From: Flavivirga aquatica
Lineage (GTDB): Bacteria; Bacteroidota; Bacteroidia; Flavobacteriales; Flavobacteriaceae
Reading direction: 5' to 3'
Assembly: GCF_001747085.1 (NCBI RefSeq)
Contig: NZ_MDJD01000034.1
Location: forward strand, 186,001 to 250,000
Length of the DNA: 64,000 nucleotides
In this document: positions 17,650 to 38,888 of the stretch, in pieces
Layout: each line of letters starts with the position of its first letter
Position numbering within the stretch: the first letter of the stretch is position 1
The notes under the pieces: model-generated
What the model saw: the letters and a program-made list of their open reading frames with translations, nothing else
Databases searched by the model: none
What the model was told of the DNA's origin: nothing
Made by a program: the position numbers and the translations under genes

Positions 17650-17723
17650 GGGCTCTTAGCTCAGCTGGATAGAGCACCTCCCTTCTAAGGAGGCGGTCGA
17701 AGGTTCGAATCCTTCAGGGCTCA
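17650..17723 (+). tRNA. tRNA-Arg (anticodon UCU)
   Basis: 74-nt cloverleaf without an encoded CCA end. The 7-bp acceptor stem has two G-U pairs, the D arm is GCTC/GAGC, the anticodon stem CCTCC/GGAGG holds the loop CTTCTAA (anticodon TCT, reading AGA), and the T arm is GAAGG-TTCGAAT-CCTTC. Its 3' end is the attachment site of the integrative element that follows; the left junction leaves the tRNA complete. Confidence 0.97.
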
Positions 17724-17727
17724 CAAA
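17703..17727 (+). repeat. Left attachment site (attL) within tRNA-Arg 3' end
   Basis: 25-bp sequence beginning GTTCGAATCCTTCAGGGCTC, covering the T loop to just past the tRNA end. It is repeated without change at 25296-25320. Confidence 0.85.
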
Positions 17728-17760
17728 AAGCTTCACTATTTTTAGTGAGGCTTTTTTGTT
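17727..17760 (+). terminator. Terminator after tRNA-Arg at attL
   Basis: Arms AAGCTTCACTA and TAGTGAGGCTT (one G-U pair) followed by TTTTTG. It lies just inside the element, so the element supplies the terminator of the tRNA. Confidence 0.75.
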
Positions 17761-18114
17761 TTATAGGGTTAACCATTGATTTTGTTGGATTGATAACTTT
17801 TATTCTTTGGGCATATTTCGTCATATTTAGACAAAATAGTTTCCCCTTGAATTTCCCCTCTAAATTATTTTGCTTCTAAAATTTTTCATTTACAAAAAAA
17901 CTAGGGTTGATTTACCGTACTTTTTGGTTTTGTAGACCATTATATATGAAGGGTGTAAAAATAAAAAATCTTATATATTTGATTATCATGTTATTATCAT
18001 TGAAATAAAGAAAAAAGCTAAGATATTCGTTAAAAAAAACAAGCTAGTGGGTATTACTATACTGTAACTAGTAATATTTTAAATATGAAATTCAGCTATT
18101 CTGTAAAAACAATT

Positions 18115-19103
18115 TTGAATATCCGTAATTACTAATAATTGATTAAAAATGCTTATTTTGTTAAAAAAACAAGTCATGAATATTTTTAGTTTTACCGCCC
18201 ATTTTGATAGTGAAGAAGCTTGTCGTACTCATTTTAAGCAAGAAAGAGATAAGATAGGAGTTAAATGCCAGCGTTGTGGTCATACTCATCACTATTGGAT
18301 AAAGGCTGTTTGGAGCTATGAGTGCAAATCTTGTAGAGCCCGTACATCTTTGAGAAGTGGTACTATTATGCAAAATTCTAATCTATCTTTTATGATATGG
18401 TATAAGACAATGTTTTTGATGACTACTACCAAGAAAGGATTTTCTTCTAAAGAAATCCAGAAACAGCTTGGTTTAAAAAGGTATGAACCTGTCTGGGCGA
18501 TGGTTCATAAACTTCGTAAAGCAATGGGTAACAGAGATGCCCGCTATACTTTAGAAGGTATGATTGAAATGGATGAAGGTTATTTTACGGTCGAATCTTC
18601 TGAAATAGAGCAACAAAAAGGAAAAAGAGGTCGTGGTGCAGTAGGAAAGCAAAACGTAATGATAATGGCAGAATCCACTCCCTTAGAAGACCCGAAAACC
18701 AACAAGAAGGATCGCCAATGTCGCTACTTTAAAGCCAAAGTGCTGACAGATCATAAGGCTGATGGTGTAAATGATACTGTTAAAGAGTCTTTAGACGAAC
18801 AAAGCATTGTTTTTACTGATAAAAGTACTTCATATGTTGATATTGCTGATTTTGTAGAACTACATATTAGTGAAAAATCAGATAAACAAACTACTAAAGA
18901 GACCTTGAAATGGGTACATATTACCATAAGCAATGCCAAACGAAACTTACTTGGAAATTATCACAAAATTAAAGGCAAATACCTACAACTCTACCTAAAC
19001 GAATTTGTTTACAAACTCAATCGAAGATATTTTGAGGAAAAACTATTCGATAGACTAGTAATAGCTGGAATTACTGGATTATGAGTAAAAACGGATATTC
19101 AAA
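18115..19103 (+). mobile_element. IS1595-family insertion sequence, copy 2
   Basis: 989 bp with the same ends (TTGAATATCCGT ... ACGGATATTCAAA) as the copy at 8232-9220 and no visible difference in the transposase. It is flanked by the 8-bp duplication AAACAATT (18107-18114 and 19104-19111). It inserted into codon 10/11 of the element's integrase. Confidence 0.92.
18149..19084 (+). CDS. IS1595 (ISXO2-like) transposase, copy 2
   Basis: 311-residue protein identical in inferred sequence to the product of copy 1: zinc ribbon followed by a DDE-type domain with MIEMDEGYF, VFTDKSTSY and SNAKRNLLGNYHKIKG. Intact, so both copies could still transpose. The second in-frame Met (MNIFSFTAHF, 18176) is a possible start. 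Confidence 0.92.
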   Translation: MLILLKKQVMNIFSFTAHFDSEEACRTHFKQERDKIGVKCQRCGHTHHYWIKAVWSYECKSCRARTSLRSGTIMQNSNLSFMIWYKTMFLMTTTKKGFSSKEIQKQLGLKRYEPVWAMVHKLRKAMGNRDARYTLEGMIEMDEGYFTVESSEIEQQKGKRGRGAVGKQNVMIMAESTPLEDPKTNKKDRQCRYFKAKVLTDHKADGVNDTVKESLDEQSIVFTDKSTSYVDIADFVELHISEKSDKQTTKETLKWVHITISNAKRNLLGNYHKIKGKYLQLYLNEFVYKLNRRYFEEKLFDRLVIAGITGL

Positions 19104-20284
19104 AAACAATTTTAAGAAAGGATAAGAAAACTAAAGCAGGTGTATATCCTTTATATTTACAAGTGATTATTAACTCAACACCCGTTAAATTACCAATTAG
19201 AGAATATTTGTCTTTAACGGATTGGGATAAACAAAAAAGTAGATGTAAGGGCAAAGGATTTAGTTACCTAAATAATCGTTTAGAAAAGCAGGAACAAGAA
19301 ATTAAAGACTTTGTAAACAAGCATATTGCAATAGGTAAGTTGGTTACTATTGATATGATTAAGCGGTTTTACAACAAAGAGGATTTTTTAGATTTTTATG
19401 GCTTTTACAAAACTTTTACTGAGCGAAAGTTTGAAAGTTTAACTAAAGGTTCACAATACCATTATACCTTACTTTGTAAAATAATGAAAGAATACAAACC
19501 AGTACTTAGGTTAGATAGTATTGACTTAAATTTTATTGAAGAATTTGATTATTACTTAATGGTAACAAGAAAAACAGGTCTAGGAGGTCGTGCAAATAAG
19601 CATAAAAAACTCAAAGCTATATTAGGTAGCGCATATAGATTAAAGTTGATTAAATCTAACCCTTATCAAGATTTTAAGATAAAAGAACCAGCACCTAGAA
19701 CAGTCTTTTTAACAACAAAAGAGTTGAGTGAGCTTGAAGAATTAGATTTAAGTAAAAGACCTAATATAGAATTAACGAGAGATAAATTTTTGTTCTCTTG
19801 TTATACTGGATTACGATTTTCCGATATGAATTATTTGAAATGGGAAGACACTAAAAATGGAATGATAGATATTGTAATGATAAAAACTAAAAACCCAGTA
19901 AAAATACCATTAACTAAAAAGGCTAAAAAATTACTTTGTAAGTATGTTAAAAAGAAAACCAATGAGTTTGTTTTTAAAGAAGTGTCAAATCAAAAAATAA
20001 ATTACGGATTAAAGAAAATAGGTGTGATTGTAAATTCTAAAAAACGATTAACATATCACGTTGCTAGACATACATTTGGTTCTTTATTAGCACAAAGTGA
20101 TGTTAGTCCATTTTATATAATGAAATTAATGGGGCATCAGAATATAGGTCAAACAGCGACTTATGTTAATGCTAATACTAAAATGTTAAGGGAAACAATG
20201 AAAAATGTAAATTTTTAATATAAATTTGGAGTAATGAAATAAAAAAGAAGAAAATACATATAAGTTAGCGTTAGCTATTTAATC

Positions 20285-20399
20285 TTGTTGTTGAAAACTG
20301 GTAATTTTTAAAACGATGCAAGCTAAATAGATTAATGCTCACGCTATGGCGTGGGCTTAGTTTATCTGCATCAAGGGTATACCAGTACCTCAACAACAG
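20285..20399. other. Hairpin-rich segment of unknown role (possible replication origin or structured RNA)
   Basis: Four nested complementary arm pairs share one axis: TGTTGTTGA (20286-20294) with TCAACAACA (20390-20398), ACTGGTA (20297-20303) with TACCAGT (20380-20386), GATGCA (20315-20320) with TGCATC (20367-20372), and GCTCACGC with GCGTGGGC around the loop TATG (20345-20348). Together they form a 115-nt cruciform or RNA stem. It lies between the integrase and the Rep operon. A 64-codon frame across it is not a convincing gene. A single- or double-strand origin for Rep, or a non-coding RNA, are the main possibilities. Confidence 0.6.
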
Positions 20400-20473
20400 T
20401 AAGCTACAGTTCCACGCTTATTTTTTGTTATTAATTCTCTATTTGGAACTGATAGAGAGATTATTATTTAATA

Positions 20474-20971
20474 ATGAAAAAAGAATTTGTAACTCAGTTT
20501 TTAGTTGCCAATGGAAAATATTTCCCTAAAAACAAATTAGATTATATTGGTAAAGAACTTGAAAAATATGATGGATTAGAATATTCTATCAATAGCAATT
20601 ATATAAGTCCTTTAAGAGGTGTTTTGTATACGTTTTTATTTTCTCCTTTCGATAGGTTGTTTCTAAAAGATAAATTTTGGGGTGTTTTAAAGTTTTGTTT
20701 AGCTGTATCAGTTATTTATTTATATATAAATTACAAGTATACAAACTTACCATATATAGCTTTCTTGTTTTTTTTAGTTTGGCAATTTTTAGATTACATA
20801 ACAGTCATATGGAGAGTAAAAAAAACGAATTTTAGAACTTTAAAAAGTATTATTAAAGAAAATGGAACTATAGTTAATAAGCCTAAAAACGACAATTCTA
20901 GTTCTGACTTAGAAAACTGGAAAAGAGATAATCCTAATTTGTCATTAAACGATTATTACAAACAAAAATAG
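20474..20971 (+). CDS. Small membrane protein of unknown function
   Basis: 165-residue protein with two hydrophobic segments (about 72-90, KFCLAVSVIYLYI, and 96-113, YIAFLFFLVWQFLDYITVIW) preceded by SPFDRLFLKDKFWGVLKF. The ends are soluble and charged; the C-terminus carries LENWKRDNPNLSLNDYYKQK. No family recognised. It is encoded inside the tRNA-Arg element between the integrase and the HTH/Rep pair, in the same direction. Membrane proteins at such positions can be immunity or exclusion factors, but nothing in the sequence proves that. Confidence 0.6.
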   Translation: MKKEFVTQFLVANGKYFPKNKLDYIGKELEKYDGLEYSINSNYISPLRGVLYTFLFSPFDRLFLKDKFWGVLKFCLAVSVIYLYINYKYTNLPYIAFLFFLVWQFLDYITVIWRVKKTNFRTLKSIIKENGTIVNKPKNDNSSSDLENWKRDNPNLSLNDYYKQK

Positions 20972-21181
20972 TATTGATTTTTTGTTATTTAGATACAGTT
21001 TTCTATTTGTCTATATTTTTTAGCTAAGCCTTTAAATCTGACGTCTTTTTTAGTTATTTCTATTTTGTTAACAAAACTTTAACTTTTCAATATTGTAACT
21101 ACTTGATTTTCAGTGTGTGTTTTTTACCGAAAAAAAACTTCACTAGAGTTATATATAATAGTAATAATTAATACTATTTAT

Positions 21182-21463
21182 ATGATGAAAAATGAGAGTT
21201 TACAAAAATTGAAAGCGTTTGAAATTAAACGAATTAGGAGGATGGAATCGCGACAAATTGAATTTTTAGAAGCACTAAAAAAAGAAAAACAATTAGATGA
21301 TTGGTTATCTGTTAAAGATGTTATAGGTATCTATTCTATTAGCCGAAAAACATTTGATAGATTGAGGTTAAAAGGGTTAAAAGTTTCTCAGCAAAAGGTA
21401 AATGGGAAGATTTTAGTTCAACGTAAGGAAATAGAAAAATTTTTAACTCTAAAGACGAGATAG
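21182..21463 (+). CDS. Helix-turn-helix protein (excisionase/Rep accessory type)
   Basis: About 93 residues from the ATG at 21182; a frame opening at 21113 adds a hydrophobic, less plausible leader. The N-terminal half is a charged helix (LQKLKAFEIKRIRRMESRQ). Residues about 34-90 form a winged helix of the MerR/excisionase type: WLSVKDVIGIYSISRKTFDRLRLKGLKVSQQKVNGKILVQRKEIEKFL. The stop is two bases from the Rep start, so the two are co-transcribed. Likely a DNA-binding control or excision factor of the element. Confidence 0.75.
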   Translation: MMKNESLQKLKAFEIKRIRRMESRQIEFLEALKKEKQLDDWLSVKDVIGIYSISRKTFDRLRLKGLKVSQQKVNGKILVQRKEIEKFLTLKTR

Positions 21464-21465
21464 TT

Positions 21466-22506
21466 ATGTTTGATGCAATAAAGATTAGAGTTCATAATAT
21501 AGTACCCAATTTTGATAGTTTAGGGGAGTGGTACAATTTATCAAGGTACGATTACGATAAGTTTTCGTTTGAATTGTATAAAAATGATAAGCCAAACAAA
21601 AATTTAGAAGTACCATTAAAAATATCGAATAGTTCCCCTAGTTATTATGGTTTTGAGATTAAAGGGAATTTAAGGAAATGGTATTTTGGAAAATTAAGTT
21701 CTAAATCTGATTTCGATAAAAAAACTTTTAGGAAATGTATAAATCTTTTAGCTGATAGGCTAGGTGTAAATAGAAAACACTTTTGGGAATTAAACAATGC
21801 ACAGTTTACGCAACTAGAATTGGGTATAAACCTTCATTTTAAAGGTGACTTTAAAAACTTTTTACAATGTGTAAGACAATATCCAAATATATCCAAGCAA
21901 TCTTATTACAAAAGAGAATCGGTAACATTTTTTGGTAGTTATTTCAGTATAATTTTTTATGACAAATTAAGAGAAGTATGCGAAAGAAATAGAATATCTA
22001 AGCAAACATCTAATAAATTAATGTCAAAAATTACTAGATTAAGGTTTGAAATTAGGGTTAAAAAAATTAGTGGTGTTCCTTTTTTTAGAGAATATGTAAG
22101 TACTGTAAATGATGCATATGCTAATTGGGATAGGTTATCGGAATATTTAAATATGGTTTATAATAACGTCATTTTTGTGAATGATATTACACCAAATATA
22201 AATACGATTTTAAGTTCTGATGTGTATGGTAATGGATCTAAAAAATTAGATAGATATTTAATTTGTAAAGGAATTGAAAAAATAGGGGTTGATAAACTTA
22301 TAGAAGATTTGTATGTCTATTACCCAACAAAAACAGCATCAACTTTTCGAGATAAATACCTTGATATAATTAAGAGCTTTGAACGTGAAGATACGATTTC
22401 ATATCAAGAAATTTTTAGGGAAAGGTTACAAGAGAAAACAGCATTTAAACCTAATGGTTTTTATAATAATAGTAATAAGAGGATATTACCCCTAAATAAC
22501 ATATAA
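21466..22506 (+). CDS. Rolling-circle-type replication initiation protein
   Basis: 346-residue protein similar in pattern to phage/plasmid replication proteins of the filamentous-phage gene II (Phage_CRI) kind. Visible marks are the N-terminal FDAIKIRVHNIVP strand, QFTQLELGINLHF, SIIFYDKLREV near residue 165 and TRLRFEIRVKKI near 191, that is, the YDK...LRxE pattern of the family. Tyrosines in the middle (RQYPNISKQSYYKRE) could provide the nicking residue, but I cannot name it with certainty. Encoded directly behind the HTH gene. It implies that the element replicates as a circle after excision. Confidence 0.62.
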   Translation: MFDAIKIRVHNIVPNFDSLGEWYNLSRYDYDKFSFELYKNDKPNKNLEVPLKISNSSPSYYGFEIKGNLRKWYFGKLSSKSDFDKKTFRKCINLLADRLGVNRKHFWELNNAQFTQLELGINLHFKGDFKNFLQCVRQYPNISKQSYYKRESVTFFGSYFSIIFYDKLREVCERNRISKQTSNKLMSKITRLRFEIRVKKISGVPFFREYVSTVNDAYANWDRLSEYLNMVYNNVIFVNDITPNINTILSSDVYGNGSKKLDRYLICKGIEKIGVDKLIEDLYVYYPTKTASTFRDKYLDIIKSFEREDTISYQEIFRERLQEKTAFKPNGFYNNSNKRILPLNNI

Positions 22507-22823
22507 CTTATACATATAGACAACTAAGACCAACAAGTAAAGGTTTAAATAATACCAAGTAAATATATTGAGAAACAACTAAGAACTTATATTTTATGTT
22601 ACTTATATATTGTTATATAAATACAATTAATAAGCACATTCTGAACAAGTAAGTTTTGATGAGTTAAATGAAGATAGTTAATTCATATTGAATAAATAGT
22701 TGTGTTTAACTGGCTATTCTTATTGCTAAGGGTAAAATTTGTTTTGATTATTACTTTTTATTAGAATGAATTTGAAAAGCTCTTAAATGAGCTTAAACCA
22801 TTAATGTTTAGAAAAGAAAAGGA
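22507..22823. other. Gene-free stretch between rep and OLD gene, 317 bp
   Basis: AT-rich, between the convergent rep and OLD genes. No supported ORF, repeat or strong terminator is seen. Confidence 0.4.
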
Positions 22824-25148
22824 TTATATTTTCTCTTTCAGAAATGATACAAGAATTTTTAAATTAGGAAAAACATCTAATAAATTAGAGTTTCTATCTT
22901 TTGAGTGTAAGTAATCTGATATAATCTCAATAGGTATATGTGGTTTTTTTACAGTTTTTGCTTTATTAGGAATTCTTTTTAACATAGAAGTTTTACTGCC
23001 TATACATTCTCTAATATATCTTATTTTTTCTTGTTCAGTAAAATGATTTGTTTCAGCATCAAAGTTATCCGCTTTTTCTGGATAATATTTTCTATATACA
23101 GAATATGTGTACTTATATGTTTCTTTGTTCACAATGAATCCCTCTAAATCACTTTCTAAAGAATATAATGGTATTTTATTACTAAGCATTTTTTGATTGA
23201 AAGAATTAATTATTTTAACTGAATCTTCATCCGTTATGAAAGAATCATTTATTTTTTCTGATATTATTTTAAATATTTCGGACTTTAAATCTTCGTTAAC
23301 TCCGTCCTTAATATCATTTATTCTTTTTATCAATTGACCCATTTTGACACCCGTTGCAATTGAGTTTTTCGATATTATTTTATCTACTAAATGATTGTTT
23401 AGTACATTAGTGTAGCTTTCTTTAAAAGTTTCTGAAATTTGATACTTTGTAAAAAAATCATCAAGATTTCTAAGTGTTATTTTAATTTCATCTTCAAAAG
23501 TTTTTTCAACAAAGGAATCTTTATCTGTAACTAGAATCCATGGTATTGTAAAATACTGTAAAAGTTTCAATAACTTAAATATTTGATAATTTCCACTAAT
23601 GGAAACGATAGATAGTTTATGAAATGTTTTAGGTAGTAATTCTTTAAATAATAATTCTAAGATAGCTTTATCACCCTCTCCCTCAACAAAAATCACATAA
23701 TCTGCAAAGACTATTTCACTTAAATTTACATCTGCTATTCTGTCAATTAAATTCCAATCTTCTTTTGTGTAATTTGTGTCATAATTTACTGCATTTATTG
23801 TATGTTTTATTTTGTCTTTAGGGCATATTTCAGCTAGACGAATTACATTACGAGCCTTAACATAATTAACTACAACAGGGGAGTGTGAGGCTATAATAAA
23901 CTGAGTGTTAGATTCTTTTACATCTAACATTAAATCCATGATTTCTCTAGTTAATTGGGGGTGTGTAAAAGCTTCTGGCTCTTCTATAACTAATAAAATG
24001 TCAGTAGAGTTTATAAACTCAAATTCCGAGAGAGCTTTCATTAGTGTAATCATAAAAGAACTTTGTATACCAGTTCCTTTACTCGCAAAAGTTGTTTTTA
24101 CCCCATCATTTAAAAACAAACTGGGTTTACCTATCATTAATTTTAAAATCCCCCTCCTTATTTCTTTTTTATTAGGTTTATCAAACTCAAATCCAGTAAT
24201 AGAAGAAATAGAATCCTTTGTTATTTTTTCAATAAGCGATTCTGTTCTTTTTGAAATTACGGAATCTATATTTTGTTTATTCGAGTATTTTCCAGTTCCC
24301 CAAATGGCATCAGTGATAGTATCATAGTCTTTTGTTACTCCACGGGTAGTAATTAAATCATCAATTATAATGTCAAATAATCTATCTAAAATCAAATTCC
24401 TCTCTTCTTTTTCTCCCCGATAAGCAGGTACGTAAAGGAATCTTTGAGTTTCTGATAAATATTGCACCACATTAGTTTTTAATGATTCAACATCTGTTTT
24501 TTGAGGTTTATAATCTGATTTAAGTATTTCTCCTGTTAACTCTCTATATGTTATTTTAAACTCTTCCTCAGTTTCATCAACAATGACATTTTTATAGAAA
24601 TCCCAACCTATATTTTTATCATTTAATAGTTTAACAAATTCTGATGGAAATATAGATTCTAATAAATCTCTTTTTAAAATTAAACTTCTATATTTTTTTA
24701 ATTTAGGTTCAGTTGGGTTGTAGTTTATACTGAAATTTTTAGAGTTATTCCTGCGTTTTATTTCTAAAACAACTTCTAATTTGTTGCGTTGACTTTTTAA
24801 AGCTTCAAATTGAAGATATAAAAGCTCAAATCGGTAAAGATTTTCTTTGTTTACACGTTTTGAACGTTCTTGGGTTATTCTTTCTCGTAATTTATTTAAT
24901 TGACCGTTGATATCATCAAATGTAACTCTAACTTCTACTCTTTCTGTATTGAAGCGATAATCTTCTTTGTCAATTATAGCTTCTTTACTTTTAGAACTAA
25001 GGTTATTAAAGAATAATTCTAAAGATTTAAGAACATTAGATTTTCCAATGTTGTTTTTACCTACAATTAGGGTAGTTATGTCATTTATAGAAAGTTCAAT
25101 TTCTTTTATTGTCTTATAACTTTTTATTTTTATTCTTGAAATTTTCAT
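22824..25148 (-). CDS. OLD-family ATPase/TOPRIM nuclease
   Basis: 774-residue protein of the 'overcoming lysogenization defect' family, DNA nucleases with an ABC-type ATPase that act in phage defence and in phage exclusion. Walker A is GKNNIGKS (30-37), the ABC signature region SKGTGIQSS (357-365), Walker B LLVIEEPEAFTHP (385-397) and H-loop SHSP (421-424). A long insertion lies between Walker A and the signature. The TOPRIM domain follows: E489 in FVEGEGDK, SISGN at 517 and the acidic TDKDS at 541-545. A long extra C-terminal domain follows. No UvrD-like helicase gene is adjacent, so this is the stand-alone (class 1) arrangement rather than Gabija. It is the cargo gene at the right end of the tRNA-Arg element, 147 bp from attR, opposite in direction to rep. 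Confidence 0.9.
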   Translation of the reverse strand: MKISRIKIKSYKTIKEIELSINDITTLIVGKNNIGKSNVLKSLELFFNNLSSKSKEAIIDKEDYRFNTERVEVRVTFDDINGQLNKLRERITQERSKRVNKENLYRFELLYLQFEALKSQRNKLEVVLEIKRRNNSKNFSINYNPTEPKLKKYRSLILKRDLLESIFPSEFVKLLNDKNIGWDFYKNVIVDETEEEFKITYRELTGEILKSDYKPQKTDVESLKTNVVQYLSETQRFLYVPAYRGEKEERNLILDRLFDIIIDDLITTRGVTKDYDTITDAIWGTGKYSNKQNIDSVISKRTESLIEKITKDSISSITGFEFDKPNKKEIRRGILKLMIGKPSLFLNDGVKTTFASKGTGIQSSFMITLMKALSEFEFINSTDILLVIEEPEAFTHPQLTREIMDLMLDVKESNTQFIIASHSPVVVNYVKARNVIRLAEICPKDKIKHTINAVNYDTNYTKEDWNLIDRIADVNLSEIVFADYVIFVEGEGDKAILELLFKELLPKTFHKLSIVSISGNYQIFKLLKLLQYFTIPWILVTDKDSFVEKTFEDEIKITLRNLDDFFTKYQISETFKESYTNVLNNHLVDKIISKNSIATGVKMGQLIKRINDIKDGVNEDLKSEIFKIISEKINDSFITDEDSVKIINSFNQKMLSNKIPLYSLESDLEGFIVNKETYKYTYSVYRKYYPEKADNFDAETNHFTEQEKIRYIRECIGSKTSMLKRIPNKAKTVKKPHIPIEIISDYLHSKDRNSNLLDVFPNLKILVSFLKEKI

Positions 25149-25295
25149 TGATTATAGGTATCTTAATTCTGAGATTCTAAGTTATAAATATAATTTAATA
25201 TTACTATTGTTATATATGATAATTTCCCCTCTCGTTTCCCCTAATCAAAATAAAGGTGGAGGAAACGTATTACTAGTAAGGCTTTGAGTATAGGA

Positions 25296-25320
25296 GTTCG
25301 AATCCTTCAGGGCTCACAAA
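25296..25320 (+). repeat. Right attachment site (attR), tRNA-Arg 3' remnant
   Basis: Exact 25-bp copy of 17703-17727 (T loop to just past the tRNA end), with no tRNA 5' part next to it. It marks the right end of the integrated element. Confidence 0.88.
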
Positions 25321-25352
25321 GGAGATAAATCTTAGATTTATCTCCTTTTTAT
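25321..25352 (+). terminator. Hairpin after attR (likely original tRNA-Arg terminator)
   Basis: Arms GGAGATAAATC and GATTTATCTCC with a 3-nt loop followed by TTTTT. Since it follows the tRNA end at attR, it was probably the tRNA terminator before integration. Confidence 0.75.
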
Positions 25353-25623
25353 TCTTTTGATTATCAGTTGTTTAATAAGTGTCTAATTCTACACCTATAT
25401 TATCTACTTTATTTCTTTAGTTTAATTAAATTGTTGTTTATCAGTTATTTAATGTTCGAGTCCTTTTTGGTTTGAAATCTTCACGGGAATAATTTAGACT
25501 ATATATAAAGGTTTTAAAAACCGCTTAAACACTGTTTAACAAACAGTTACATAAATCAGAATTAATACTAAAAACATTTTAAATGAAGTAAGTATATTTG
25601 CTTTTCAACGATTAGGGTTTATC

Positions 25624-26676
25624 ATGGATAAAGAAGTAAGTAATATAAAAGAAATTACCAAAGAAATTCAATTACTTATTGAGCAAAGCAAGCAACAAAT
25701 TGCGCTCTCAGTTAATGCAACAATGAGTCTAATGTATTGGCAAATTGGAAGAAAGATTAATCAAGAGGTTTTGCAAAATCAAAGAGGTACTTATGGTAAA
25801 CAGATTGTCGTATTACTGTCACGACAATTGACAACTGAATATGGCACATCCTTTTCTGAGAAAAATCTACGTAGAATGATGCAATTTGCTACTTGTTTTC
25901 CAGATGAAAAGATTGTCGCATCAATGATACGACAATTGAGTTGGACACATATTTTAGCAATTATACCTATAGAAGATCCTTTAAAACGTGAATTTTATTT
26001 ACAGCTATGTGTTCATGAAAAATGGAGTGTACGGACTTTTCGAGAAAGAATTAAATCAATGCTATATGAACGTACTGCCATAAGTAAGAAACCTGAAGAA
26101 ACAATTAAAAAGGATTTAGTTAAATTAGATAAGAGCCAGAATATTTCTCCTGATTTAGTTTTTAGAGATCCGTATTTTCTCGATTTTTTGGGATTATCAG
26201 ATTCCTATTCAGAAAAAGATTTAGAAAGCTCTATTCTTGTAGAGCTCCAAAAGTTTATAACAGAACTTGGGAGTGACTTTGCTTTTATGGCACGTCAAAA
26301 ACGAATAACGATAGACAGTAGGGATTACTATATCGATTTACTATTTTATCATCGAAGATTAAAATCATTAGTAGCAATTGATCTGAAAATCGGAGAATTT
26401 GAAGCTTCATATAAAGGACAGATGGAATTATACCTCCGCTACCTTGAAAAACACGAAATCGTAGATGGTGAAAATAGCCCAATAGGTTTAATTCTTTGTA
26501 CTGGGAAAAATGAAGAGCATGTAGAGTTATTACAATTGGACAAGAGCAACATAAGAGTAGCAGAATATTTAACACTCCTGCCTTCTAAAGAAATACTGCA
26601 AAGTAAATTGCATAGAGCTATTGAAATTGCTAAAAATAAATCAGGAACTAATGAACAGAGAAATCAACCTGATTAG
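25624..26676 (+). CDS. DUF1016 (YhcG-like) PDDEXK nuclease
   Basis: 350-residue protein of the DUF1016/YhcG family. The N-terminal helical domain (about 1-165) includes MYWQIGRKINQEV and FSEKNLRRMMQFA and is thought to bind DNA. The C-terminal part (about 180-335) is a PDDEXK-type nuclease: D238 in DYYIDLLFYH and D253-x-K255 in LVAIDLKIG, then YKGQMELYLRYLEKHE. Family members turn up next to restriction and defence genes. The end of this gene overlaps the start of the primase-helicase gene by 26 bp, which suggests translation coupling and a two-protein system. Confidence 0.88.
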   Translation: MDKEVSNIKEITKEIQLLIEQSKQQIALSVNATMSLMYWQIGRKINQEVLQNQRGTYGKQIVVLLSRQLTTEYGTSFSEKNLRRMMQFATCFPDEKIVASMIRQLSWTHILAIIPIEDPLKREFYLQLCVHEKWSVRTFRERIKSMLYERTAISKKPEETIKKDLVKLDKSQNISPDLVFRDPYFLDFLGLSDSYSEKDLESSILVELQKFITELGSDFAFMARQKRITIDSRDYYIDLLFYHRRLKSLVAIDLKIGEFEASYKGQMELYLRYLEKHEIVDGENSPIGLILCTGKNEEHVELLQLDKSNIRVAEYLTLLPSKEILQSKLHRAIEIAKNKSGTNEQRNQPD

Positions 26677-29635
26677 AAACCTATTCAATTGTAGAGAAGA
26701 TGTTTTTGCTATGCATTGGCAAAAAGGCAATAAAAGTGGATATATGCCTGCTTATCATTATGATCCATATAGGTATCGACTTCACAAAATGAATGGAGGT
26801 ACTTTTAAGACTTTCAATGAAAAAGCCTACCTCACTCTTACAGATCAACAAATTACTAAACACTTAAATGGAGAACAACTAATTGGCATATACCCTTTAC
26901 TCAAAGACAATACTTCTTGGTTCATTGTTGCTGATTTCGACAAACAAAATTGGAAAGAAGAAAGTCAAACATTTATTGATATCTGTTTAGATAAAGGTAT
27001 CTCGGCATATCTTGAAAGATCAAAGTCAGGCAATGGTGCTCATGTTTGGATATTCTTTGATCAAGCTTACCCAGCAATAAAGAGTAGAAAGATTTTTATT
27101 TCAATACTTGAAGAAGGTAATATCTTTTCCGTATTTGACAAAAGTTCAAGTTTTGACCGTTTATTTCCGAATCAAAATTTTCTCTCTGGAAAAGGCTTAG
27201 GAAACCTGATTGCATTGCCTTTTTATAAACCTACATTAGAACAAGGAAACAGCTGTTTTGTAGACAACAACTTAAAACCACACGAAAATCAATGGGATTT
27301 CTTATCTTCTATTCAGAAAGTAACAACCACTCATCTTGATAAAATATTTGAATCTTTAGCGATAGATAATTTAGCTTCATCAGTCACAGAAAAGCTCAAT
27401 TCGAATAAACTGCATATAACCCTTAATAGTTCTGTGATAATCAATCGATCGGGAATAACACCTGAGCTGATCAATTTTCTTAAAGAGGAATTAAATTTTG
27501 CAAACCCTGAGTACTTTATTAAAAAGAAAACGAGTAAATCTACGTGGGATACAAAACGATATTTTAGGTTTATTGAAGAAACAGAAAATGAAATTATTAT
27601 TCCTAGAGGTTTTGTAGGAAGGTTAATTCAATATTGCAAACAAGGAAAAATTGATTTTGAATTCCTAGATAAAAGAGTGAAATTTCCTTTAACTAAATTT
27701 TCTACAAATATAATATTAAGACCGCATCAAAATATAGCAATAGAAGCTACCGTCAAAAAAGATTTTGGTGTAATTACAGCACCTTCAGGTTCAGGTAAAA
27801 CAGTAATTGGATTAAAAATCATTGCTAAAAAGCAACAACCAGCTTTAATTATTGTCCATCGGAAACAACTCTTAGAACAATGGATCGAACGAATTCAAGC
27901 ATTTTTTGGGATTCCAAAAAATGAAATTGGAAAGATTGGACAAGGCAAAGCGAAAGTTGGGAAGACTATCACAGTAGCAATGATTCAGAGTTTAGGTAAA
28001 CAACTTGAAAAACAAGAAATAGAAGGTCTTGCTAAACGATTTGGAATAATCATTATTGATGAATGCCACCATGTACCAGCAGAAACATTTAGAAAAACAA
28101 TTTCAAGACTATCAACTTATTATCAATATGGGTTAACAGCAACACCTTTTCGAAAAGGAAGCGATGGAAAACAAATATTTATTCATCTAGGTAGAATTAT
28201 AGCTGATATTAAACCTGAAGAAATTGAAAACTATAAAAGATCGCGAATTAACATACGAGAAACAAGCTTAGACATCCCTTTCAATTCTAAAACGGATACA
28301 TTTGAAACGTTATCAAAGGTACTTGTTCATGATTCTACTAGAAATAAACTTATCCTAAGTGATGTACGTAACGAATTAAATAGAAGAAAAAAGGTTGTTA
28401 TAATTACCGAACGAAAAGAGCACATTGATACATTGTATCAATTACTAAAACAATCCTTTGAAACTATCACATTAAGTGGAGAAGACTCTGAAAGTAATAG
28501 AAAAGCGAAATGGAAGGTTCTTAATGAAGGAAATTATCAAGCTCTAATAACTACAGGGCAATTTTTTGGAGAAGGAACTGATTTACCAAATGCTTCTTGT
28601 GTGTTTTTAGTATACCCATTCTCTTTCAAAGGGAAACTTGTTCAGTATATAGGTCGTGTTCAACGATCAGAAATAACTCCTGTGATCTATGATTACCGAG
28701 ATCAGAAAATTGATTACTTAAACAAGCTTTTTCTAAAAAGAAACACTTATTATCGACACTTTGATAGGCAAGCATCTTTATTTGAAGAATCGGAGAACAT
28801 AGAAGAAATATCTAAAAATGTTATCTCAGTTAAAGAGACAATAAAAACACCGATTGATAGACTTGACTTTCGATATGGAGCTATTGCTTTTAAATATAAA
28901 ACATCAAAAATTCCAATAGAACTTGAATTCGAAATAGAAAATGATGAAATTCGACCTGAGTTTGATGTCTTAAAACCCTATTTCTCAAAATTTTTAAAGT
29001 CAAAAAATGTAGAAGCTAATATTTTTGCAGAAATCTTGAATGGAAAAGTAATTTCTCAAATAGCTGATTCCAAAGATTTGGAAATGATTAATAGAGAAAT
29101 CATTGAAGGTGTAAAATTTCGCTTTACAGAAAAGAGTATTCTTCATAAAAAACATTCAATAGAAACAGATAAAAACTTACTTGATTTAGAGTGTCTACAA
29201 GAAAGAAATGGTTCTTTTTTATACAAATCAGAAGAAGAGTTACTAAATTCTGTCTTGCAAAATGAGGAAGTTAAACATTTTCGACAATTACGGTATTTAG
29301 CAACAAAACATGATAGTACAGTGTTAAAATTACGTTTTGTTTTGAGTCCATTTTCTTTCGTATTTCTATTAACAGGGAAAGATCAGTATCATATTATTCT
29401 TGAGACATTGGATACAGAAGAGGCAACATATATTTGGCACATTGATAAAAATAAAAATGTGCTTTCAAAAAAACTAAGAGCAATTGATCATGATTTAAAT
29501 ATGATTAGGAATAATGGTCGCCAAAGTTTTCTAGAAAGTAAACCTAAAAACTTTAGTCGCCTAATTCATGATTATTCAGATAGAAGAAAAGGGTTTATAC
29601 TTTGGAAGGATCTGTTGGAAGAAAGACTAACTTAA
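26651..29635 (+). CDS. Primase-helicase fusion of the TOTE conflict-system type
   Basis: About 994 residues from the ATG at 26651; a more upstream ATG at 26621 lies deeper inside the nuclease gene. Residues about 1-240 are an archaeo-eukaryotic primase domain: WFIVADFDK with DFD at 95-97, SGNGAHVW at 126-133, then LGNLIALPF. Residues about 355-690 are a superfamily-2 helicase with APSGSGKT (377-384), IIIDECHH (DECH at 470-473), YGLTATPFRKG and a C-terminal half containing QYIGRVQR. About 300 residues of unrecognised sequence follow. Such primase-helicase proteins belong to predicted anti-mobile-element TOTE systems. With the overlapping DUF1016 nuclease it forms a plausible defence module, which is inference. 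Confidence 0.8.
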   Translation: MNREINLIRNLFNCREDVFAMHWQKGNKSGYMPAYHYDPYRYRLHKMNGGTFKTFNEKAYLTLTDQQITKHLNGEQLIGIYPLLKDNTSWFIVADFDKQNWKEESQTFIDICLDKGISAYLERSKSGNGAHVWIFFDQAYPAIKSRKIFISILEEGNIFSVFDKSSSFDRLFPNQNFLSGKGLGNLIALPFYKPTLEQGNSCFVDNNLKPHENQWDFLSSIQKVTTTHLDKIFESLAIDNLASSVTEKLNSNKLHITLNSSVIINRSGITPELINFLKEELNFANPEYFIKKKTSKSTWDTKRYFRFIEETENEIIIPRGFVGRLIQYCKQGKIDFEFLDKRVKFPLTKFSTNIILRPHQNIAIEATVKKDFGVITAPSGSGKTVIGLKIIAKKQQPALIIVHRKQLLEQWIERIQAFFGIPKNEIGKIGQGKAKVGKTITVAMIQSLGKQLEKQEIEGLAKRFGIIIIDECHHVPAETFRKTISRLSTYYQYGLTATPFRKGSDGKQIFIHLGRIIADIKPEEIENYKRSRINIRETSLDIPFNSKTDTFETLSKVLVHDSTRNKLILSDVRNELNRRKKVVIITERKEHIDTLYQLLKQSFETITLSGEDSESNRKAKWKVLNEGNYQALITTGQFFGEGTDLPNASCVFLVYPFSFKGKLVQYIGRVQRSEITPVIYDYRDQKIDYLNKLFLKRNTYYRHFDRQASLFEESENIEEISKNVISVKETIKTPIDRLDFRYGAIAFKYKTSKIPIELEFEIENDEIRPEFDVLKPYFSKFLKSKNVEANIFAEILNGKVISQIADSKDLEMINREIIEGVKFRFTEKSILHKKHSIETDKNLLDLECLQERNGSFLYKSEEELLNSVLQNEEVKHFRQLRYLATKHDSTVLKLRFVLSPFSFVFLLTGKDQYHIILETLDTEEATYIWHIDKNKNVLSKKLRAIDHDLNMIRNNGRQSFLESKPKNFSRLIHDYSDRRKGFILWKDLLEERLT

Positions 29636-29726
29636 ACCTAAATTAGTCTTTCTTAACTAAATTTTTATTATTTAATTCACTGCTCTCATAAAACCCACAA
29701 TAACATCAAAATCCTCAAGAAGAAAG

Positions 29727-29790
29727 TTCGATACTTCTTCCGTTGGGCTCACACCGAAACCTCACTTTAATAGTGGGGTTTCTTTGGTTT
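29727..29790 (+). other. tRNA-3'-end-like sequence and terminator (possible third att site)
   Basis: GTTCGATACTTCTTCCGTTG followed by GGCTCACA resembles the T-arm and acceptor end of the tRNA-Arg att repeat but is degenerate. As at attL, it is directly followed by a hairpin with arms GAAACCTCACT and AGTGGGGTTTC and a T-rich tail, and then by an integrase start. It may be a decayed attachment site of an older element. Confidence 0.4.
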
Positions 29791-29878: not shown

Positions 29879-30088
29879 TTGAAAGCAACTATTAAGATAA
29901 AGGTATCGGAAAGAAAAACCGATAATGGACTTCCTGTTTATTTAGAAATTTACCATAAAGGGAAAAGAAAACGAGAAATGATTACTCATAGTTTTTTGGA
30001 AAATTGGGATATTGAAAACCAAAAACCACTAAAACAACATCTAGATTATGGATCAAGCCCAATTGTTGTTTTTAGGCAAAAATTCTAG
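29879..30088 (+). pseudogene. N-terminal remnant of a tyrosine integrase
   Basis: 69 codons starting with TTG: KATIKIKVSERKTDNGLPVYLEIYH...REMITHSFLENWDIENQKP, the arm-binding domain found at the start of Bacteroidota tyrosine integrases. The similarity stops near residue 55 and the frame ends soon after; core and catalytic domains are missing. It lies 90 bp after the tRNA-end-like sequence, the usual place for an integrase, so it is the relic of a further element. Confidence 0.65.
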
Positions 30089-38478: not shown

Positions 38479-38888
38479 GGCTATGACCATGTGATCATAC
38501 AGGATAACTATGGACTAAATTCAAATAATTAGACTAAAATACTGACTTAAAGAAGATTGTGAATAAAAATAGTTTATAAAATACACGTTTTAATGTCTTA
38601 ACTAAGTTGCTCTTAGTACTCCTTATGTGATTTCTGCTTTAATAAATACTTTCAAGAAAACGTTTTCCCCCTTATTTAAGTAACGGATCAGTCAACAAGA
38701 CATATAGCCTTGGCCTATCGGCACGCCATATGCTTAGTTATTGTAAGTAGTGCTTTTCACGTTCAGCTTAGTTTTCCGATGTTTGTTATTTAGTTCAAAT
38801 GTGAGCGTTGGCAAGACATACTCTTTTGCAATTTTTGGTGTAGCGTTGGCTTTAGCGAATTGCAAATGTGTATGGCTTTAAGCGTTGG
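38479..38888. repeat. Gene-free region with cassette-type palindromes (site 2), 410 bp
   Basis: After the IS91-type gene, two imperfect palindromes lie head to tail. One uses ACATATAGCC and GGC/GCCATATGC (about 38710-38750) with CAAC and GTTATTG outside. The other uses GCAAGACATAC..TTTGCAATT and AATTGCAAA..GTATGGCTT (about 38810-38868) with GCGTTGGC at both ends. The second sits directly downstream of the restriction endonuclease gene as read on the minus strand, where a cassette recombination site would be expected. Confidence 0.45.

Follow-up and report, generated by a model that had tools for sequence, protein, structure and literature searches.

One question raised by a stretch of 64,000 nucleotides from Flavivirga aquatica (positions 186,001 to 250,000 of contig NZ_MDJD01000034.1, henceforth the window) is whether two overlapping genes that it carries belong together and, if so, what kind of unit they form. 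The first encodes a nuclease-like protein of the DUF1016/YhcG type and the second a large protein, here named PHEL, in which an AEP-TOTE primase domain is joined to an XPB-like superfamily 2 (SF2) helicase and a tail. An earlier note on this DNA had proposed them as a two-gene defence system. Our comparisons uphold a real, recurring and co-mobile two-gene unit, present at five loci of a single PHEL clade and at several genomic sites, and do not support a fixed role for DUF1016 as partner: across a wider set of cassettes it is PHEL that stays constant, while the partner gene or gene pair is exchanged.

Both genes lie on the forward strand, contain complete domains and are judged to be real. The DUF1016 protein (350 aa; 25624..26676, +; Pfam, alignment and PADLOC) is composed of a DUF1016_N domain (residues 14-150; PF17761, 160.5 bits) and a PD-(D/E)XK domain, YhcG_C (residues 179-329; PF06250, 166.8 bits), with D238, D253 and K255. 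In 9/9 rows of the alignment the first and last of these residues never vary, with either D or E at position 253, so that the active site pointed out in the earlier note is kept. PHEL (994 aa; ATG at 26651, stop at 29635; 26651..29635, +; Pfam, structure-sequence matches and motifs) begins with the archaeo-eukaryotic primase (AEP) domain (26660..27343, +, residues 4-231; DFD at 95-97, H131), which matches PF22548 (AEP-TOTE) at 279.6 bits against a cut-off of 27. The SF2 helicase core follows (27710..28753, +, residues 354-701; DECH at 470-473), with matches to ResIII (112.5 bits), to Helicase_C (40.9 bits) and, as best solved relatives by sequence, to the XPBII/Rad25 helicases. DFD, H131, K383/T384 (the Walker lysine), DECH and R669/R672 (motif VI) are invariant in 12/12 rows, and the 994-residue primase-helicase fusion stands as originally read. 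The C-terminal tail (28793..29632, +, residues 715-994) is an undescribed domain, as had been supposed, and is about 280 rather than 300 residues long when counted from residue 715.

The start of PHEL lies exactly 26 bp inside the DUF1016 gene, as had been noticed, and does so at the same position in 5/5 loci with the pair (the window, L003, L004, L005 and L009). A profile search finds exactly one YhcG_C match in the entire window genome (4.64 Mb, 54 contigs), and for this reason adjacency to PHEL by chance is unlikely. Relative to the other four loci the ratio of non-synonymous to synonymous substitution rates (dN/dS; Nei-Gojobori, our own script, values without error estimate) is 0.048-0.079 for DUF1016 and 0.106-0.189 for PHEL, with 0.090-0.229 when the PHEL tail is taken by itself.

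The pair is contained in a mobile cassette of 4.43 kb (25321..29753, +), defined by the borders at which homology to L003 ends, while homology to L004 includes the tRNA-derived sites. On the left the attachment (att) site (25296..25320, +) reproduces the 3' end of tRNA-Arg(TCT) exactly, forming a 25-bp direct repeat with 17703-17727; on the right the cassette carries a degenerate, tRNA-T-arm-like site (TTCGA...GGGCTCACA; 29727..29753, +), with the same sequence in L003 and L004, and a terminator-like hairpin, recognised by eye, lies outside this end. Between the att sites there are only the DUF1016 and PHEL genes and no integrase. In Aquimarina agarilytica (L004) a 96% identical cassette directly follows an intact tRNA-Arg, and in L003 one of 97% identity sits inside one unit of a repeat array, of which uninterrupted copies are also present; the L003 target shares a TTCGA...TCAC layout with the right site of the cassette. 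Judged from these alignments, the two genes have travelled together between related bacteria as a single cassette that lacks an integrase gene.

The intact tRNA-Arg(TCT) of the window (17650-17724) lies on or beyond a neighbouring element and not the unit itself. This separate element (17703..25320) uses the same tRNA, is bounded by the 25-bp exact repeat (17703-17727 and 25296-25320) and contains IS1595, a tyrosine integrase (19163-20218, +), a helix-turn-helix (HTH) gene, a replication-like gene (21466-22506, +) and an OLD gene (22824-25148, -). The OLD gene, which had been linked to the pair, was considered as a third member of the unit and rejected on account of these boundaries; since it forms the preceding element together with the integrase and the replication-like gene, there are two elements in tandem at one tRNA. 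As for a helper integrase, that of the window has only distant relatives in the L004 genome (best 29% identity) and, at E 1e-5, none in that of L003. A remnant of a tyrosine integrase arm-binding domain (29882..30085, +; PF17293, E 3.7e-7) lies directly beyond the right site, perhaps the trace of a third element at tRNA-Arg.

Cis-mobilizable elements (CIMEs), as described in PMC5704250, have att copies at both ends and no integrase, and accrete in tandem with an integrase-bearing element at one tRNA; the cassette shows this arrangement. The cassette could then be a decayed remnant of a larger integrase-bearing element, kept by chance and with the two genes as leftover cargo, and the integrase remnant just outside it fits such a history. 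The same source makes CIMEs the decay products of integrative and conjugative elements or of integrative and mobilizable elements (IMEs), whereas here we find a coherent cassette set with one constant gene and several target genes. We consider decay improbable: in other genomes the PHEL cassettes at tRNA-Asn, ssb, a DUF1905 gene and tRNA-Arg match this one in compactness, and within these too no integrase was recognised; the 4.43-kb unit occurs at two kinds of sites, and dN/dS is low.

How firmly, then, are the two genes joined? The closest PHEL relatives that the genome scan turned up belong to Flavobacteriaceae. In whole-genome samples, 11/395 genomes of the class, 14/395 of the phylum and 10/397 of the family sample contain a match at E 1e-60 or better, these samples overlapping and including the window's own genome. 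DUF1016 is directly upstream of PHEL in 4/13 genome-scan loci (L003, L004, L005, L009), two of the nine others (L008, L011) having less than 600 bp of upstream sequence, and this adjacency is seen only with PHELs whose identity to that of the window is 80% or more. A tree of 36 PHELs, made by a quick method without bootstrap and with long branches among seven distant rows, places the five DUF1016-paired PHELs in one clade (SH-aLRT 100). Among 114 loci a DUF1016 relative (phmmer, E 1e-5) stands beside PHEL only in the window, L003, L004, L005 (the same locus as L073, L081 and L102) and L009, flanks being short at L028 and at the distant homologues L061, L062 and L063, of which L061 was covered more widely as L071. 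The gene-neighbourhood survey that the earlier note had called for thus shows DUF1016 adjacency limited to one PHEL clade, the other PHELs carrying different conflict-type partners. A fixed, family-wide partnership is accordingly rejected, and DUF1016-PHEL is a stable mobile unit of one clade.

The exchange of partners is best seen in the 27 tail-bearing PHEL loci with flanking sequence (the window, L003-L007, L009, L010, L012-L015, L029-L034, L037, L065-L068 and L082-L085; L008, L011, L021, L028 and L086, with upstream sequence missing or fragments only, were left out), in 20 of which a conflict-type module lies directly beside PHEL. DUF1016 (the window by Pfam, L003, L004, L005 and L009 by phmmer) and AbiEi/AbiEii (L037, L067, where it is downstream, L068, L084 and L085) account for five loci each, Schlafen-AlbA for three (L007, L014, L083), and Fic (L013, divergent; L030) and zeta (L032, divergent; L033, downstream) for two each. 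Single loci have HipA (L012), a BsuBI/PstI restriction-modification system (L006) and an addiction antitoxin, PF09720 (L082), the last separated from PHEL by a small gene without family match. Fifteen PHEL genomes contain 22 AbiEii matches, of which five adjoin PHEL compared to about 0.01 expected at random, assuming 3,500 genes per genome. On the PHEL tree the partner labels require 23 changes for 17 labels (among them 'none', 'notail' and single rows), where 16 would suffice if each had arisen once.

The remaining tail-bearing PHELs have as neighbours an HTH gene (L015), an HTH gene followed by HsdR (L066), DUF3024 followed by ORF6N and an HsdR-like gene (L034), two genes of which one is without Pfam match and the other unscanned (L029) or a decayed Schlafen-AlbA-like frame recognised by eye (L065), and nothing was recognised at L010 and L031. 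More distant loci, some of them also lacking the tail, were considered separately and include AbiEii (L035 and, as annotated, plasmid L042), Schlafen-AlbA (L072), AAA_14/DUF4143 (L036) and, as annotated, HigB with a regulator (plasmid L039), with other neighbours or none recognised at L038, L040, L041, L043, L069, L070 and L071.

Since such sister partners are mostly genes of the toxin-antitoxin type, and the 26-bp overlap suggests coupled translation, the DUF1016-PHEL pair could be an addiction device, with a toxic nuclease and PHEL as its neutraliser or repairer, such that loss of the cassette is punished. This we regard as quite improbable, a shade more so than chance survival of a remnant. 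In L067, L068 and L085 PHEL is interrupted while the partner frame is open, and PHEL is therefore not needed there as an antidote; AbiEi/AbiEii toxin-antitoxin pairs are not known to need a helicase; and in ten viral-contig loci carrying a DUF1016 relative (L048 and L052 short on one side) PHEL was found in none.

Several cassettes also reveal their own borders as direct repeats around PHEL and partner: 257 bp (92%) at the ssb 3' end in L084, 180 bp (94%) again at the ssb 3' end in L082, 258 bp (93%) in a DUF1905 gene in L065, 77 bp at tRNA-Asn in L032, 80 bp at tRNA-Arg TCT in L067, 58 bp of the same repeat kind as L003 in L037, 47 bp, tRNA-Met-like by eye, in L005, and 61 bp (79%) in L029. 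The ssb gene has thus been used twice as integration site (L082:8775-9104 and L084:3343-3675), with different partners, an antitoxin pair and AbiE respectively. The L003 and L009 loci lie in repeat arrays, and in L010 a tRNA-Asn is found 298 bp upstream.

Among the 23 tail-bearing loci whose flanks reach 600 bp or more on each side, 10 have flanking repeats above 45 bits, as against 1/178 random segments of 3.5-4.5 kb (Fisher 5e-10), or 8/21 loci when L003 and L009 are excluded (Fisher 3e-8). The single control above this value is L081, a second copy of the L005 cassette record, and the next reaches 43.7 (L008). The 178 controls, of 300 draws, share a pool with the loci and overlap, L003 being excluded from that pool; before the count, core limits were set anew for L029, L065 and L066, and L083, with no repeat at first look, was dropped. 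Because flanking repeats had been seen before counting, score and threshold are post hoc. The window itself fails the repeat score because its right site is degenerate, and it is counted as a cassette from the tRNA-Arg repeat and the homology to L003 and L004. Nor was a strong flanking repeat seen at L036, L069, L070 or, with 453 bp on one side, L035, which are tail-less or distant.

Inside the repeat-bounded cassettes PHEL and partner are the main genes (Pfam or phmmer), L029 containing its two further genes as well, and none of the open reading frames of at least 75 codons is integrase-like, integrases being sought through PF00589 and by eye, and serine recombinases and transposases lying outside this search. 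In the L082 genome the nearest PF00589 match lies at a distance of about 68 kb, and there is none on the PHEL contigs of L084 and L065; an integrase is located just outside the left repeat of L005 (Pfam) and, by eye, near PHEL in L066, L085 and L009. In L082 an IS1595-type transposase-like gene, again by eye, lies just beyond ssb, outside the repeats.

In this context the strongest competing explanation is that PHEL is a replication protein, the primase and helicase with which a minimal integrative element would copy its excised circle, the partners being passenger or maintenance modules to which any anti-phage effect would belong. PHEL is indeed the sole gene constant across the cassettes bounded by direct repeats; according to PMC5862659, bacterial AEPs of another supergroup reside nearly exclusively in integrated mobile elements, and PMC5704250 lists replication factors, toxin-antitoxin and restriction-modification modules among the maintenance factors of excised IMEs. 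At the same time no integrase or relaxase was recognised within the cassettes, so that autonomous excision is not expected, the DUF1016-PHEL pair stays joined at different sites in L003, L004 and L005, and more distant PHEL homologues are also found in large plasmids. On balance we hold replication to be the less than likely role of PHEL, and nevertheless one to be taken seriously.

We tentatively prefer another explanation, of which we are not quite half convinced, namely a small mobile conflict cassette in which PHEL would be a DNA-surveying or DNA-processing core combined with an exchangeable effector. The XPB-like motor might engage foreign DNA that is abnormal or being replicated, on which the primase domain might bind or extend ends, while the DUF1016 PD-(D/E)XK nuclease, restrained by PHEL, would cut once PHEL is engaged, as in HamA/HamB. 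In sister cassettes the effector role would fall to AbiE, Fic, Schlafen-AlbA, HipA, zeta or restriction enzymes, and the whole would move by site-specific recombination, with an integrase probably supplied in trans or by a tandem neighbour.

In favour of a conflict cassette are the active-site motifs kept in both proteins, the low dN/dS, the constant overlap and the conflict-type neighbours at 20/27 loci. Several points weigh against it. Anti-phage activity and binding of DUF1016 to PHEL are predictions; the pairing arose once in our sample, with independent recurrence not found among the 114 loci; seven of the 27 tail-bearing PHELs have no recognised module as neighbour; 13/23 testable loci, the window included, are without a strong flanking repeat; and the three loci with a broken PHEL and an open partner frame count here as well. 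Moreover, as AbiE, HipA, zeta and the addiction antitoxin are classic maintenance modules, PHEL may simply replicate the element.

The analogy with Hachiman, in which a nuclease (HamA) is likewise combined with an SF2 helicase (HamB) in a two-gene layout, suggests that the DUF1016 version may act in a similar manner, and the restraint-and-release logic proposed above is taken from it. According to PMC12278908, the nuclease of Hachiman is held back by the helicase until damaged DNA is encountered, and defence is lost when either active site is mutated. The components differ, HamA being DUF1837 and HamB Ski2-like (same source), whereas here a YhcG-type nuclease is associated with an XPB-like helicase bearing a primase domain. 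A Pfam scan of the DUF1016 protein at E 0.01 met no family besides DUF1016_N and YhcG_C, and HamA-type DUF1837 was not among its matches; PHEL matches are of the ResIII/XPB/RadD type, and HamB is not among the eight PADLOC families listed, a result obtained without direct comparison of PHEL and HamB. AbpAB also has a two-gene layout and is activated by phage single-stranded-DNA-binding protein or DNA damage (PMC10732053).

What the nuclease-like protein itself might contribute is indicated by several matches. The PADLOC model PDC-S02 (PDLC04807) covers its residues 5-341 at E 4.5e-130, a full-length match that places DUF1016 among the defence candidates of PADLOC. Of the CRISPR-associated models, PD_DExK matches DUF1016, and PrimPol matches PHEL in its primase part and under the cut-off. 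The predicted DUF1016 structure is weak (mean pLDDT 61) and gave no Foldseek match under E 0.001; among the matches listed, two of the more probable are the Holliday-junction resolvases 1ob8 and 1ob9 (E 0.047; probability 0.97 and 0.96). With VIA-align, ParB/Noc DNA-binding domains fill the top 11 rows for the first 150 or so residues (Z 7.0-8.5, 12-16% identity), a range that possibly reflects a common helical arrangement. These weak leads hint that DUF1016 could consist of a ParB/Noc-like DNA-binding N-terminal domain and a resolvase-like nuclease. YhcG was predicted earlier as a PD-(D/E)XK, Holliday-resolvase-like enzyme, whose neighbours are not conserved save for one type I restriction cluster (PMC1189080). 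By eye, a small XRE-type HTH frame lies upstream of DUF1016 at L009:6750-6960, with a degraded-looking counterpart in L005, and the first codons of the window DUF1016 (25624) nearly match the start of the L009 frame, as if a deletion had fused two starts.

The tail of PHEL, with H162, H200, E204, E210, T212, W215, H259 and others invariant in 15 rows, has no match to PDB sequences up to E 10 and no consistent Pfam match across 15 members. Stand-alone homologues of about 400 aa occur in 2/345 genomes (L094:1126-2319, E 2.6e-29; L095:1498-2709, E 7.8e-27), a gene beside one of them looking, by eye, like a LytTR response regulator. PHELs in L058 and L059 are 51-52% identical in the core yet end before the tail. 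Structure prediction of PHEL from 12 sequences yields a mean pLDDT of 57, with most of the tail under 50, and a search of viral contigs for PHEL relatives gave none. Two PHEL copies lie some 8 kb apart in L008 (1-2814 and 10467-10811), separated by other genes. In L014, L034, L067, L068 and L085 a broken or truncated PHEL stands next to open partner frames, which suggests rapid turnover.

Both proteins fall into families that already have names, and att-bounded elements without an integrase are known as CIMEs. A fused SF2 (XPB-like) helicase is a feature of TOTE conflict systems, and PHEL, with this fusion and an AEP-TOTE domain far above the family cut-off, is likewise found among mobile and conflict genes; the tail of about 280 aa and the integrase-free cassette form are features of the present loci, and part of the partner diversity may already stand in the founding TOTE description. 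In AbpAB the nuclease is AbpA and the helicase AbpB; they belong to families other than those of DUF1016 and PHEL and have no primase domain. The literature searched, in part only and with few subscription papers covered, contained no TOTE helicase partner for DUF1016/YhcG, no partner exchange around TOTE primase-helicases and no compact integrase-free TOTE cassettes.

A bolder generalisation, which we offer as speculation more likely to fail than to hold, is that tail-bearing TOTE primase-helicases constitute an undescribed family of integrase-free integrating cassettes of Bacteroidota and relatives. Each would comprise a constant PHEL and one exchangeable conflict module, passenger or effector, and would integrate at the 3' ends of genes such as those for tRNA and ssb, in a site-specific recombination carried out by a borrowed integrase or with PHEL and its tail taking part, such that one core equips hosts with many alternative defence effectors. 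If true, one primase-helicase would serve as a common platform for plugging in different toxic effectors, and such platforms would travel as 4-6 kb cassettes that integrase-based searches would miss. Retrons and cyclic-nucleotide systems likewise combine one platform with different effectors. Two questions become testable as a result, one about what it is that TOTE primase-helicases sense or carry out, the other about the movement of cassettes that have no integrase.

Finally, the repeat array of L003 (L003:315-14226) appears by eye to be composed of units of roughly 1.1 kb with long shared repeats and attC-like palindromes. Its repeat type also flanks the AbiE-PHEL cassette of L037 (L037:2831-2943), and in the window positions 38672-38773, after an IS91-type transposase-like gene recognised by eye, match the L003 array units many times.

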